From: Micromonospora sp. WMMD882 | GTDB taxonomy: Bacteria > Actinomycetota > Actinomycetes > Mycobacteriales > Micromonosporaceae | NCBI RefSeq assembly: GCF_027497255.1 | Contig: NZ_CP114903.1 | Span: 5,518,001 to 5,582,000, forward strand | Direction of reading: 5' to 3' | Length of the DNA stretch: 64,000 bases | Shown here: piece by piece, positions 40,515-44,184 of the stretch | How the letters are laid out: every line of letters begins with the position of its first letter | Position numbering within the stretch: position 1 is the first letter of the stretch | Program-made: the position numbers and the translations under genes | Notes under the pieces: model-generated | The model's database searches: none | What the model was told of the DNA's origin: nothing | Seen by the model: the letters and a program-made list of their open reading frames with translations, nothing else

Positions 40515-40648
40515 CCCGCGCCGCCACGCCGCTCGGGGCGGTGGACCGGACGCCGGCCCGCCGCCCCGCTCCGTCGACCACCCTGGCCGCCCGCGTGAGC
40601 TGGCCGAACACCGCGACCAACAACCCGGCGGTACGGGCGACCGAGCAG

Positions 40649-40714
40649 CCCTTCCGCGCCGGGGAGGTACCACTTCGCGAAGGCTGTCGAGCTGCCCCGG
40701 ATATGGGGCACGCC
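40649..40714 (+). repeat. Dispersed hairpin repeat, copy 1
   Basis: About 66 bp ending in CTGTCGAGCTGCCCCGGATA and TGGGGCACGCC. The core TGCCCC-GGATAT-GGGGCA folds as a 6-bp stem. It is between convergent genes, 10 bp from the stop of the minus-strand lipoprotein. Related copies are at 41514, 44001, 44086 and 57583/57902. Confidence 0.85.
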
Positions 40715-41372: not shown

Positions 41373-41513
41373 GACCTCATGATGCGCTGACGACGCTCGT
41401 GGAAGCCCGGCGGGGCCGAGCTGTCTGCCCGTACCGGCGTGGTCGTTTCCCCGTCCGAACGTAGCCCACGACGATCCGCCGGAAAACCGCGAGCTACCCT
41501 CCGCTGCCGGCAC

Positions 41514-41577
41514 CCCTTCCACGCGGGGGAGATACCACCTCTCCGAGGCTGTCGAGCTGCCCCGAATCTGGGGCCGC
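41514..41577 (+). repeat. Dispersed hairpin repeat, copy 2
   Basis: Aligns over about 64 bp with copy 1 (CTGTCGAGCTGCCCCGAATC then TGGGGC). It lies 20 bp beyond the stop of the minus-strand NLR-like gene. Confidence 0.85.
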
Positions 41578-41597: not shown

Positions 41598-43361
41598 TCA
41601 CGATTCCAGCTCATCGAGGAGCGTGCGGATCAGTGTGGCGGCGTGCGTGTCGCCGGTCTCGGCGAAGGCCGCCACCGCCTGCTCCCAGCAGACACGCGCC
41701 TCGTCAAGCCGGCCTGCCTCGGCCAGGGCGAGGCCGAGGTTGTTCAATGCCTGGCCTTCGCCGTGGCGGTCGCCGAGTTGGTGGAAGATGTCGCGGGCGT
41801 TGGTGTGGGCGGTGATGGCGTCGTCGAATCGGCGTACCTGCCGCAGGGCGAGACCGAGACTGTTCCACGCCCGGCCTTCGCCATGGCGGTCGCCGAGCTG
41901 TTGGAAGATCTCGCGGGCGAGGGTGGCGATGGTGATCCAGTCGGTGAAGTGGCGGCGGAAGCTCAGGAAGCGGGCGAGCGCGAACACGAGGCTGGTGGTG
42001 ATGTGTGGCAGGTCGTGGGTGGGGGCGTTGGCGCAGACGCTGACGAGGTTGGCGTGTTCGGCGTCGAGCCAGCGCAGGGCGTCCTGCCGGCTGGGGAACC
42101 GGGTGGTGTCGGTCGGGCCGGTCGGCACCAGGTGGGTGTTCGCGGTGCTGGTGGTGTCGAGGTAGTGGGTGAACAGCCGCTGTCGGGCGGTGGGGGTTTC
42201 GTCGGGGCTGGCGACGGGTTGGGTGGCGGCGTGCAGGCGGATGAGGTCGTGCATGCGCCACCGGTCGGCGGCGGGCTCGTCGACCAGGTGCGCGCGGTGC
42301 AGATCCTCCAGCAGCACCGCGACCCGCGCGGCGGGTAGGCCGGTCAGGGCGGCGGCGCCGTCCGTAGCGACGTCGGGGCCGGGGTTGACCGGCAGCAGCC
42401 GGTACAGCAGGGCCTGCTCGCCGGCAAGATTCCGGTACGACAGGTCGAATGCGGCCCGCACGGCGACCTGCTGGCGGGACAGTCCGTCGAGGCGGGCCTG
42501 GTCGTCGCGGAGCCGGTCGGCCAGGGCCGCTGGTCGCAGAAGGGAACGGTCGGCCAGCAGCGCGGCGACGACCCGCAGCGCCAGGGGCAGGCCCGCGCAC
42601 AACCCGGCCAGGTCGGTCATCGCCTGCTGCTGGTCCGGCGCGTGCAGGCGCGGATCGTCAGCGCCACGGCGCTGAGCGATGACCTCGCGGATCAGGTGGA
42701 CGGCGGGCCCGGTGTCGAGGACGTTGAGGTCGTGCAGGCTGGCGTCGATGTCCAGGGTGTGCCGGGAGGTGACCAGCACCGGAATCTCGGGGTCGGTCGG
42801 CAGCAGCGGGGTGACCTGGTCCTCGGTCGCGGCGTTGTCGACGATCAGCAGCAGCCGGCGGTCCTGGCTGGTGTAGGCGTCCAGGACGCTGCGCCACAAC
42901 CGGGCCCGGTCCTGCACGCTGGCGGGAATGTGCTCACCGGGGATGCCGATGGCCTGCAACCAGCCCAACAGCGCGTCGGCGGCGGAGAGTCGTCGGGCGG
43001 CGTCGTAGCCGAACATGTCCACGAACAGCACCCCGCCCGGGAACCAGCCCGGCTTCCGCAGGGCCCGATGCGCGGTCTGGACCACCAGCTCGGTCTTGCC
43101 GACCCCGGCCATCCCCGCCACCGCCGACACCAGCACCGGCCCGCCCGCGCCCTCCGGGGACAAACCAGCCAGCAGGGCGTCGACCTGAACGTCGCGGCCG
43201 GTGAAGACCGCCGCCGGGCGGGGCAGCCCGGTCAACGCGGGACGGATCTGCGCGGGCAGGGTCACCTGGATGTCCCGTCCCATCACCACCGCGTGGAAGA
43301 ACACCCCGTCGCTGATCCGGTTCGACACGCCCACCGGCTCGTCGGCCGGCGTCCCGCTCAC
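41598..43361 (-). CDS. NLR-like STAND ATPase (NB-ARC + TPR) with N-terminal amyloid-like motif
   Basis: 587 residues. Residues 13-31 hold SNRISDGVFFHAVVMGRDI, resembling bacterial amyloid-signalling motifs. Next is an NB-ARC ATPase: Walker A GMAGVGKT at 83-90, Walker B LLLIVDNA, sensor VLVTSRH, GLPLALRVVAALL, and a winged-helix MHDLIRLHA. The C-terminus (from about 480) has TPR units (GRAWNSLGLALRQVRRFDDA, GQALNNLGLALAEAGRLDEA). No SARP DNA-binding domain is present, so it is a signalling ATPase, probably an immune or developmental switch. GTG 43361 overlaps the stop of the preceding membrane-protein gene (GTGA), giving a coupled two-gene operon. Confidence 0.88.
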   Translation of the reverse strand: MSGTPADEPVGVSNRISDGVFFHAVVMGRDIQVTLPAQIRPALTGLPRPAAVFTGRDVQVDALLAGLSPEGAGGPVLVSAVAGMAGVGKTELVVQTAHRALRKPGWFPGGVLFVDMFGYDAARRLSAADALLGWLQAIGIPGEHIPASVQDRARLWRSVLDAYTSQDRRLLLIVDNAATEDQVTPLLPTDPEIPVLVTSRHTLDIDASLHDLNVLDTGPAVHLIREVIAQRRGADDPRLHAPDQQQAMTDLAGLCAGLPLALRVVAALLADRSLLRPAALADRLRDDQARLDGLSRQQVAVRAAFDLSYRNLAGEQALLYRLLPVNPGPDVATDGAAALTGLPAARVAVLLEDLHRAHLVDEPAADRWRMHDLIRLHAATQPVASPDETPTARQRLFTHYLDTTSTANTHLVPTGPTDTTRFPSRQDALRWLDAEHANLVSVCANAPTHDLPHITTSLVFALARFLSFRRHFTDWITIATLAREIFQQLGDRHGEGRAWNSLGLALRQVRRFDDAITAHTNARDIFHQLGDRHGEGQALNNLGLALAEAGRLDEARVCWEQAVAAFAETGDTHAATLIRTLLDELES

Positions 43362-43882
43362 CGGGCCGACCCGTCCGCGTCGCCGGCCGGGGCGCCGCCA
43401 GACGGGGGCAGGACAATGCCCCGGATGTCCCGACCCATGATCACCGGCCCGCCGAAGCTGCCGTCGTCGATCCTGTTGGAGACGCCGCCCGACCGGGAGG
43501 CACCCGTGAGCGGCGACCGACCCGCGGCCGGATCCGGAGCTGGTCCACCGGTGGCGGACACCTGCTCCACGTCCCGACCCATCACCACCGCGTCGGTGAA
43601 CTGACCCTTGGTGATCCGGTTGTCGACGTCCCCACCCACCACCGGAGGCGGGGCGGGCAGGGTAGCGGCGCGGCGGGCCTGCACCGCGCTGTAGCCGGCC
43701 ACGACCACCCCGGCGAGGTTCAGGAACACCCCGAGCACGCTGGCCCACCGGTCGGCGTCCGCCAACCCCGCCCGCGCCAGCAACACGCCCAGGGCGCACA
43801 CCGCCAGCCCGACCGGTACGCCCACCAGCCACCAGCCCCTGCCACGTACCCTCATCAGTCCATTGTCGACCGACCAGGCCAC
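43358..43882 (-). CDS. Small two-helix membrane protein with two amyloid-like motifs, NLR partner
   Basis: 174 residues. Two hydrophobic helices at about 17-36 (WWLVGVPVGLAVCALGVLLA) and 46-66 (WASVLGVFLNLAGVVVAGY), then a flexible C-terminal half with two copies of the motif found at the NLR N-terminus: DNRITKGQFTDAVVMGRDV (87-105) and SNRIDDGSFGGPVIMGRDI (135-153). The gene ends inside the NLR start codon. By analogy with amyloid-signalling pairs it could be the receptor or membrane effector templated by the NLR; no enzymatic effector domain is visible. Start GTG 43882 has TGAGGA 8 bp upstream; ATG 43855 is possible. Confidence 0.8.
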   Translation of the reverse strand: MAWSVDNGLMRVRGRGWWLVGVPVGLAVCALGVLLARAGLADADRWASVLGVFLNLAGVVVAGYSAVQARRAATLPAPPPVVGGDVDNRITKGQFTDAVVMGRDVEQVSATGGPAPDPAAGRSPLTGASRSGGVSNRIDDGSFGGPVIMGRDIRGIVLPPSGGAPAGDADGSAR

Positions 43883-44184
43883 CTGACGGTTCCTCAACCG
43901 CCCAACGCCGAAGCCGCAACGGCCATCGACAGTCCGGCCACCCTTGACTCCCCGGTCGCCGTTACGGCCTGTCGCGCTCGGCCTGTCGCCGCAGCCAGCG
44001 CTCCTTCCGCGCTCGGTGAGGGTGTCGCCTCTCCGAGCCTGTCGAGCTGCCCCGAATATGGGGCACGCGGTTCCGGCCTCGGTGTCCCAGATATGGGGCA
44101 GCTCGACAGGCTCCGACCACCCATGTCCTGGTCTCCCCGGTTACTATGAGTGACGAACTCTCGCGAGCGTGTAGCCGCGACGGG
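43883..44184. other. 302-bp gap holding repeat copies 3 and 4
   Basis: Upstream of the NLR operon and downstream of the GntR gene. Apart from the paired repeats at 44001-44114, only short GC-rich sequence is seen; the NLR operon promoter should lie in 43885-44000, but no clear boxes are visible. Confidence 0.5.
44001..44114. repeat. Dispersed hairpin repeat, copies 3 and 4 in inverted orientation
   Basis: Copy 3 (44001-44069, plus) and copy 4 (44086-44114, minus) face each other. Their shared 19-bp arm (GAGCCTGTCGAGCTGCCCC at 44035-44053 and its complement at 44095-44113) makes a perfect inverted repeat with a 41-bp spacer. Each also carries the smaller CCCC-GGGG hairpin. Confidence 0.85.

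Follow-up and report, generated by a model that had tools for sequence, protein, structure and literature searches.

Our analysis indicates that two overlapping genes of Micromonospora sp. WMMD882 probably encode a signalosome of the bacterial NLR/BASS kind, in which a homotypic motif would connect an NB-ARC/TPR protein with a two-transmembrane (2TM) effector. Several features of the sequences point to this: a motif shared by both proteins, the overlap of their genes, two hydrophobic helices, recurrence of the pair in relatives, matching of motif classes between the partners, and one fusion of a 2TM domain to a STAND NTPase.

Gene layout and domain architecture

The window analyzed here is the whole stretch of 64,000 nucleotides (contig NZ_CP114903.1, positions 5,518,001 to 5,582,000); coordinates are those of the window, and both genes and the features described with them lie on the minus strand. 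The 2TM gene (43358..43855, 165 aa) encodes the candidate membrane effector, with two membrane helices and a double C-terminal motif. The NB-ARC/TPR gene (41598..43361, 587 aa) encodes the candidate sensor, a STAND protein that is AfsR-like according to Pfam and its nearest solved structures. We set the start of the 2TM protein at ATG 43855 because aligned relatives begin there and because at least 29 of 34 relatives have a -10-like box ahead of it. This count is a lower bound, as the starts of L070 and L089 were misplaced in it, and it carries no chance control, the pattern having been picked after looking at the sequences. The initial annotation had rightly placed a membrane gene here, and the start lies slightly inside the interval that it gave. 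The box reads GACAAT in the window (43862..43867, 6 nt before the ATG), and similar boxes stand 5 to 7 nt before the 2TM start in relatives of several motif classes. Its recurrence so close to the start suggests leaderless transcripts with a common 5' end.

The stop of the 2TM gene (TGA) and the start of the NB-ARC gene (GTG) share the 4 nt GTGA (43358..43361), an overlap that may couple the translation of the two genes. By eye, ATGA or GTGA stands at the 2TM stop in 30 of 34 relatives; three of the 30 are divergent loci, where a restart is impossible. The two genes are divergent and not overlapping in Micromonospora echinofusca MPMI6 (L060 and L130). A palindromic REP-like repeat lies on both sides of the cassette (40645-40709, 41510-41574, 44000-44064, and 44082-44116; core TGTCGAGCTGCCCC...ATATGGGGC), and a 106-base query finds 55 matches to it genome-wide at E ≤ 1e-4.

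The 2TM protein consists, in order, of two hydrophobic helices with the short turn LADADRW between them, a pair of arginines, and a tail with two motif copies. Hydropathy places helix 1 at residues 7 to 28 (43772..43837) and helix 2 at residues 37 to 58 (43682..43747); the tail is likely cytosolic, because the arginines follow helix 2. An AlphaFold2 monomer model (47 sequences, mean pLDDT 79.5, pTM 0.49) contains a two-helix hairpin with helices at residues 7 to 28 and 31 to 65, the latter enclosing helix 2. In the tail, the model has one strand-turn-strand per motif (strands 77-86 and 90-94 in copy 1, 125-134 and 138-142 in copy 2), with a block pLDDT of 81 to 93 for both. Hydropathy and the model both agree with the overlapping upstream two-helix membrane protein described at first, and a beta-arch is predicted in the motifs. 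A Foldseek search of the model against the PDB returned nothing significant; rows 1 and 3 of the three obtained were HET-s amyloid (E 3.3 and 7.3), which we regard as a curiosity.

Profile searches recognized no catalytic or toxin domain in the 2TM protein and no Pfam family above its cut-off, and no Pfam family matched more than five of 47 members of the 2TM family at E ≤ 0.01. SLATT proteins, predicted to be pore-forming 2TM effectors of conflict systems, are also small and have two membrane helices, and they differ in that they are described as responsive to nucleotide signals (PMC7159879). The SLATT Pfam model was absent from the matches of the 2TM protein at E ≤ 1 and of the 47 family members at E ≤ 0.01. 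Among the defense-system models of PADLOC, none matched the pair well; a generic TPR model (1e-6) and mad8 (E 0.014) were the only matches, and none was to the 2TM protein.

The NB-ARC/TPR protein carries an NB-ARC domain at residues 60 to 310 (42432..43184; PF00931, E 7e-8, above cut-off) and TPR repeats (41664..41937; PF13424, above cut-off). The TPR units are 120-nt tandem repeats, located at 41698-41937 in the window; TPR_12 stretches number three in the window protein and nine in that of L060, and a repeat number that varies between relatives fits a diversifying sensor. The nearest solved structures are AfsR (8k60 and 8jke, E 1e-51 and 8e-51), with APAF1 at 1e-4. The likeness to AfsR, a STAND regulator of Streptomyces, covers residues 34 to 571, which correspond to its NB-ARC-TPR body, and begins at AfsR residue 279 or 299. 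The N-terminal SARP DNA-binding domain of AfsR has no match in the window protein (Pfam, NCBIfam), which has the short motif at this position instead. No output domain was recognized in the NB-ARC/TPR protein, in which only the motif lies before residue 34.

This likeness raises the question of whether the genes encode an AfsR-type regulator pair, in which the 2TM protein would act as a tether for an NB-ARC/TPR protein that modulates transcription or development, with no cell death. NCBIfam matches to AfsR and to the RiPP protein HaaT, both below their cut-offs, fit such a pair as well. We consider it quite improbable, given that the SARP part is missing, that the class B relatives described below have partners from a dissimilar NTPase family, and that the L092 protein has a NACHT NTPase.

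The shared motif and its core

The three near-identical motifs that the initial annotation had noticed are indeed present. In profile coordinates, copy 1 of the 2TM protein (DNRITKGQFTDAVVMGRDV) spans 43550..43630, copy 2 (SNRIDDGSFGGPVIMGRDI) spans 43403..43486, and the N-terminal motif of the NB-ARC/TPR protein (SNRISDGVFFHAVVMGRDI) spans 43251..43331, where it occupies residues 12 to 30, ahead of the NB-ARC domain and the TPRs. The 2TM tail aligns with the NB-ARC N-terminus at a score of 79, compared with 56 for the best of 20000 shuffles (0/20000 reach it), and the two copies of the tail align with each other at 69, compared with 60 (0/20000). A motif profile made from 24 peptides of the window and related loci, and so built partly from the copies it finds, gives four hits at E ≤ 0.01 across the entire 6.37-Mb genome, namely, the three cassette copies and one remnant.

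The remnant belongs to a second cassette of the same genome (G000:C1:2021114-2021245, L002/L058; profile match at G000:C1:2021132). It matches residues 70 to 113 of the 2TM protein, the region of motif 1, with 73% identity and is without membrane helices, and no NB-ARC gene was found within 6 kb of it. An ORF nearby resembles, by eye, what we take to be a transposase.

When the window and three relatives were compared in four pairs, dN/dS was 0.21 to 0.43 for the effector motifs, 0.34 to 0.58 for the NLR motif, 0.35 to 0.44 for the 2TM domain, and 0.43 to 0.58 for the effector linkers. The motifs are maintained, but the constraint on them is no tighter than on the membrane domain, as their dN/dS is not clearly lower in these four comparisons. 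Similarity by chance, or an artifact of low complexity or repeats, could be suspected from motif copies that are short, glycine-rich, and alike at the DNA level (over 51 nt, the third copy shares 69% and 80% identity with the other two). We attach practically no weight to this explanation in view of the shuffles, of the dN/dS range of the motifs, and of the presence of the motif on both proteins in other genomes, a check that the initial annotation had proposed. Recurrence in relatives and the class-level matching presented below also contradict it.

The cores of the window motifs read AVVMGRD, PVIMGRD, and AVVMGRD. The RHIM core is described as G-(I,V)-Q-(I,V)-G (PMC7885112); the glutamine is missing from all three window motifs, which have methionine instead. 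The same residue sets the window pair apart from NLR/BELL signalosomes with BASS motifs, of which BASS3 is the RHIM-related family. The M-G-R-D for Q-A that had been remarked upon therefore holds for the window, but it is one form among several, the relatives having VVQGRD, VVQARD, VIQGHT, and VVQGNN. When the cores of the NLR motif and the last effector motif were read by eye in 18 pairs of motif class A (defined below), five were M/M, none M/Q, three Q/M, and 10 Q/Q (hypergeometric P = 0.0065 one-sided, with relatedness among the pairs uncorrected). Methionine cores and mixed pairs both occur among these 18, so methionine is a variant that the core tolerates.

Relatives, motif classes, and partner matching

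In the genus, the 2TM protein was matched in 20 of 151 genomes at E ≤ 1e-3, its own genome counted. At the family level, 93 of 300 genomes match a 13-row 2TM profile at E ≤ 1e-4, where many weak rows resemble single helices in long frames, and a limit of E ≤ 1e-15 leaves 36 of the 300 (by eye). At the class level, a nine-row profile has matches in 11 of 296 genomes at E ≤ 1e-4; in two of the 11, only the tail matches. The 2TM domain is a family, mainly of Micromonosporaceae, with several classes of tail motif.

Flanking DNA was taken for 60 2TM hits, a subset of all those listed, and 44 of these loci have a STAND-type P-loop gene next to that of the 2TM protein. The other 16 include the remnant L058, the partnerless class A loci L061 and L072, and L092, which has its NTPase in the same protein, as well as loci such as L096 and L109, whose partner NTPases are missed by the P-loop pattern. 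Among the class A loci, with tails read by eye, an NB-ARC gene stands beside the 2TM gene in 16 of 18, the co-occurrence that had been put forward as a check; no NB-ARC gene was found within about 6 kb at L061 and L072. At L070, the partner NB-ARC gene is broken by a stop.

Some neighbors are of other kinds. About 0.7 kb upstream of the 2TM gene of L072, a 319-aa frame (L072:4298-5254, plus strand) with no Pfam match carries a class A motif (NQITDGTVHGPVIQAGSF) near its N-terminus and is perhaps another type of partner. Beside 2TM relatives with the tail HGIAIGQVGGDVHFG, a second ORF has a near-identical motif at its end (L098:5588-6124, minus strand; L099:5209-5667, plus strand; L096:5660-6358, minus strand), and this motif may be common to more than two proteins.

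The tails of class A follow the pattern NxIxxGxFxxxV(I/V)(Q/M)GRDI, those of class B QSVTGSxxxGxVxQVxxVxGDVxI, and those of class C GRDAYVAGRDQHF; in a small class E, the NTPase bears VVQARDVxGGVHFH. Cognate tails and N-termini score 61.1 on average, compared with 39.7 for noncognate combinations (44 pairs; 0/20000 permutations). When the 2TM tails and the motif-only N-termini of the NTPases were clustered separately, with 42 of the 44 pairs used and L070 and L114 dropped, the adjusted Rand index between them was 1.00 at k = 3, 0.30 at k = 4, 1.00 at k = 5, and 0.91 at k = 6 (0/2000 permutations each), with class sizes of 20, 15, 4, 2, and 1 at k = 5. Clustering of the uncut N-termini of the NTPases, again without L070 and L114, gave 0.18, 0.74, and 1.00 at k = 3, 4, and 5. 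Between the 2TM domain and the NTPase motif, the index is 0.41 at k = 3 and 0.69 at k = 5 (42 pairs), and the partial Mantel correlation of tail and motif, given the similarity of the 2TM domains and of the NTPases, is 0.43 (0/5000).

L114 is an intact pair in which no recognizable motif match was found (score 27, rank 24 of 44). When it is kept, the agreement is 0.23, 0.28, 0.33, 1.00, and 0.92 at k = 3 to 7, the low value of 0.33 at k = 5 arising because L114 occupies one of the clusters alone; when L070 is retained too, the agreement at k = 7 is 0.93.

At k = 5 (1.00) and k = 6 (0.91), the lineage of the NTPase matches the motif no less closely than the tail does, so part of the pattern is coinheritance; at k = 3, the lineage reaches 0.29, compared with 1.00 for the tail. 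Between classes A and B, the NTPases are dissimilar (0.05), those of class A being NB-ARC and AfsR-like, whereas the 2TM domains are related (0.29). One membrane family is thus found with different kinds of sensors, each bearing its own motif. Within the classes, no preference for the true partner was found in class A (68.4 versus 66.0, 3539/20000; motif only, 53.4 versus 50.5, 1237/20000) or class B (64.3 versus 62.2, 3114/20000). Since lineage travels with class and no such preference appears, we claim matching at the level of the class only. At that level, the idea of a two-gene signaling pair with a shared motif is well supported by the relatives, in which the pair recurs and other motif classes also match between both proteins.

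In one locus, the 2TM domain is in one frame with a NACHT NTPase (L092:4244-6379, minus strand; PF05729, E 4e-8, above cut-off). This protein has its P-loop at residue 175 of 689 and further hydrophobic spans near residues 502 to 604, and no motif was seen by eye between the 2TM domain and the NTPase. The fusion is thus a link between the 2TM domain and STAND sensors that does not depend on the motif. It also suggests that contact through paired motifs takes the place of the linkage in L092, which amounts to the pair in one protein.

The fusion would fit a mere membrane anchor equally, and class-level matching would look the same if the motif were a homotypic docking peptide of a nonamyloid nature. 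The 2TM protein would then be an anchor or sensor that pairs beta-strands with the NB-ARC protein, and the latter would signal. Two copies on the membrane side could provide avidity for such docking, and the lack of a recognized catalytic or toxin domain in the 2TM protein is compatible with it. We nevertheless think docking unlikely. The related BASS3 of Streptomyces atratus is described as forming foci in Podospora, whereas two proline mutants are not (PMC9815663), and the NB-ARC protein, which would have to signal, has no recognized output domain of its own.

Proposed mechanism and comparison with known systems

In the signalosome that we favor, the motifs would probably act as an amyloid-like switch, in the manner of a plug and socket. 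The mechanism that we infer comprises oligomerization, templating, a direction of signaling, membrane damage, and a role in defense. The NB-ARC/TPR protein would be the sensor, and a ligand on its TPR side would start the cascade. Assembly through the NB-ARC domain is established for the STAND family, and nucleotide-dependent (ATP) oligomerization would here gather several N-terminal motifs. The clustered motifs would then template both copies of the 2TM tail into the same beta-arch (amyloid-like) stack, as related BASS motifs are described to do (PMC9815663, PMC7889193). By analogy, and given the two helices, stacking might draw the membrane hairpins together and permeabilize the membrane of the affected compartment.

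The initial annotation had named the pair its strongest candidate for an undescribed system. That claim falls, as bacterial NLR/effector pairs with shared amyloid motifs, in adjacent or overlapping genes, are already in print (PMC7889193). In NLR/BELL signalosomes with BASS motifs, the genes are adjacent or overlapping, and the NLR carries the motif N-terminally and the effector C-terminally; such pairs are reported mainly from actinobacteria and cyanobacteria, some with repeated motifs on the effector side (PMC7889193, PMC8086366, PMC9815663). The window pair shows the same arrangement, with similar N- and C-terminal motifs in overlapping genes and a STAND NTPase with repeats, both above cut-off. 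The effectors appear to differ, BELL being an alpha-helical bundle (PMC7889193) and the 2TM protein a predicted two-helix membrane hairpin. CHAT and TIR are further BASS-linked domains (PMC7889193).

The tail class of the window protein occurs with a different N-terminal domain in other genomes (L125/L134, L137, and L140). No stretch of membrane-level hydropathy was found in L137 and L140, and the AlphaFold model of L140, from three sequences, has five helices and an unstructured tail. These proteins fit the printed description of BELL, and we take them to be Bell-like. The 2TM profile showed no similarity to three of them, the only sequences on that side and Bell by this assignment (hhalign probability 0.1 of 100). 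We found no two-transmembrane BASS effector in the portions of the literature searched, which did not extend to the original survey (J Mol Biol 2020, doi 10.1016/j.jmb.2020.10.004). What is new here may be the 2TM effector family and the change from glutamine to methionine in the core.

Among fungi, HET-S/NWD2 and HELLP/PNT1 (PP motif) are likewise clusters of two genes, for an NLR and an effector that have an amyloid motif in common, and PNT1 is described as PP-NB-ARC-TPR (PMC12881547). They differ in that their effector is HeLo or HELL and not 2TM, and they belong to another kingdom and have another motif sequence.

These comparisons lead us to a broader reading, which we offer tentatively and would place somewhat below an even chance. 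The 2TM protein would be an effector class apart from BELL with an interchangeable socket, that is, one hairpin family that has taken up at least four classes of tail motif and dissimilar STAND NTPases, with a matching motif each time and once, in L092, a motifless NACHT fusion. With its double motif, each effector would contribute two units to the stack, as HET-s does, and the core with methionine would be a functional RHIM-related variant whose changes tend to occur in both partners together.

If this is true, a type of membrane effector would be added to prokaryotic amyloid signaling. The family would also represent a natural swap experiment, in which related membrane domains occur with different motif classes, with sensors of the same class, and with one direct fusion. 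Short peptides and small proteins in laboratory hosts would then allow direct tests of how specific the motifs are, of cross-seeding, and of whether the RHIM glutamine is needed.
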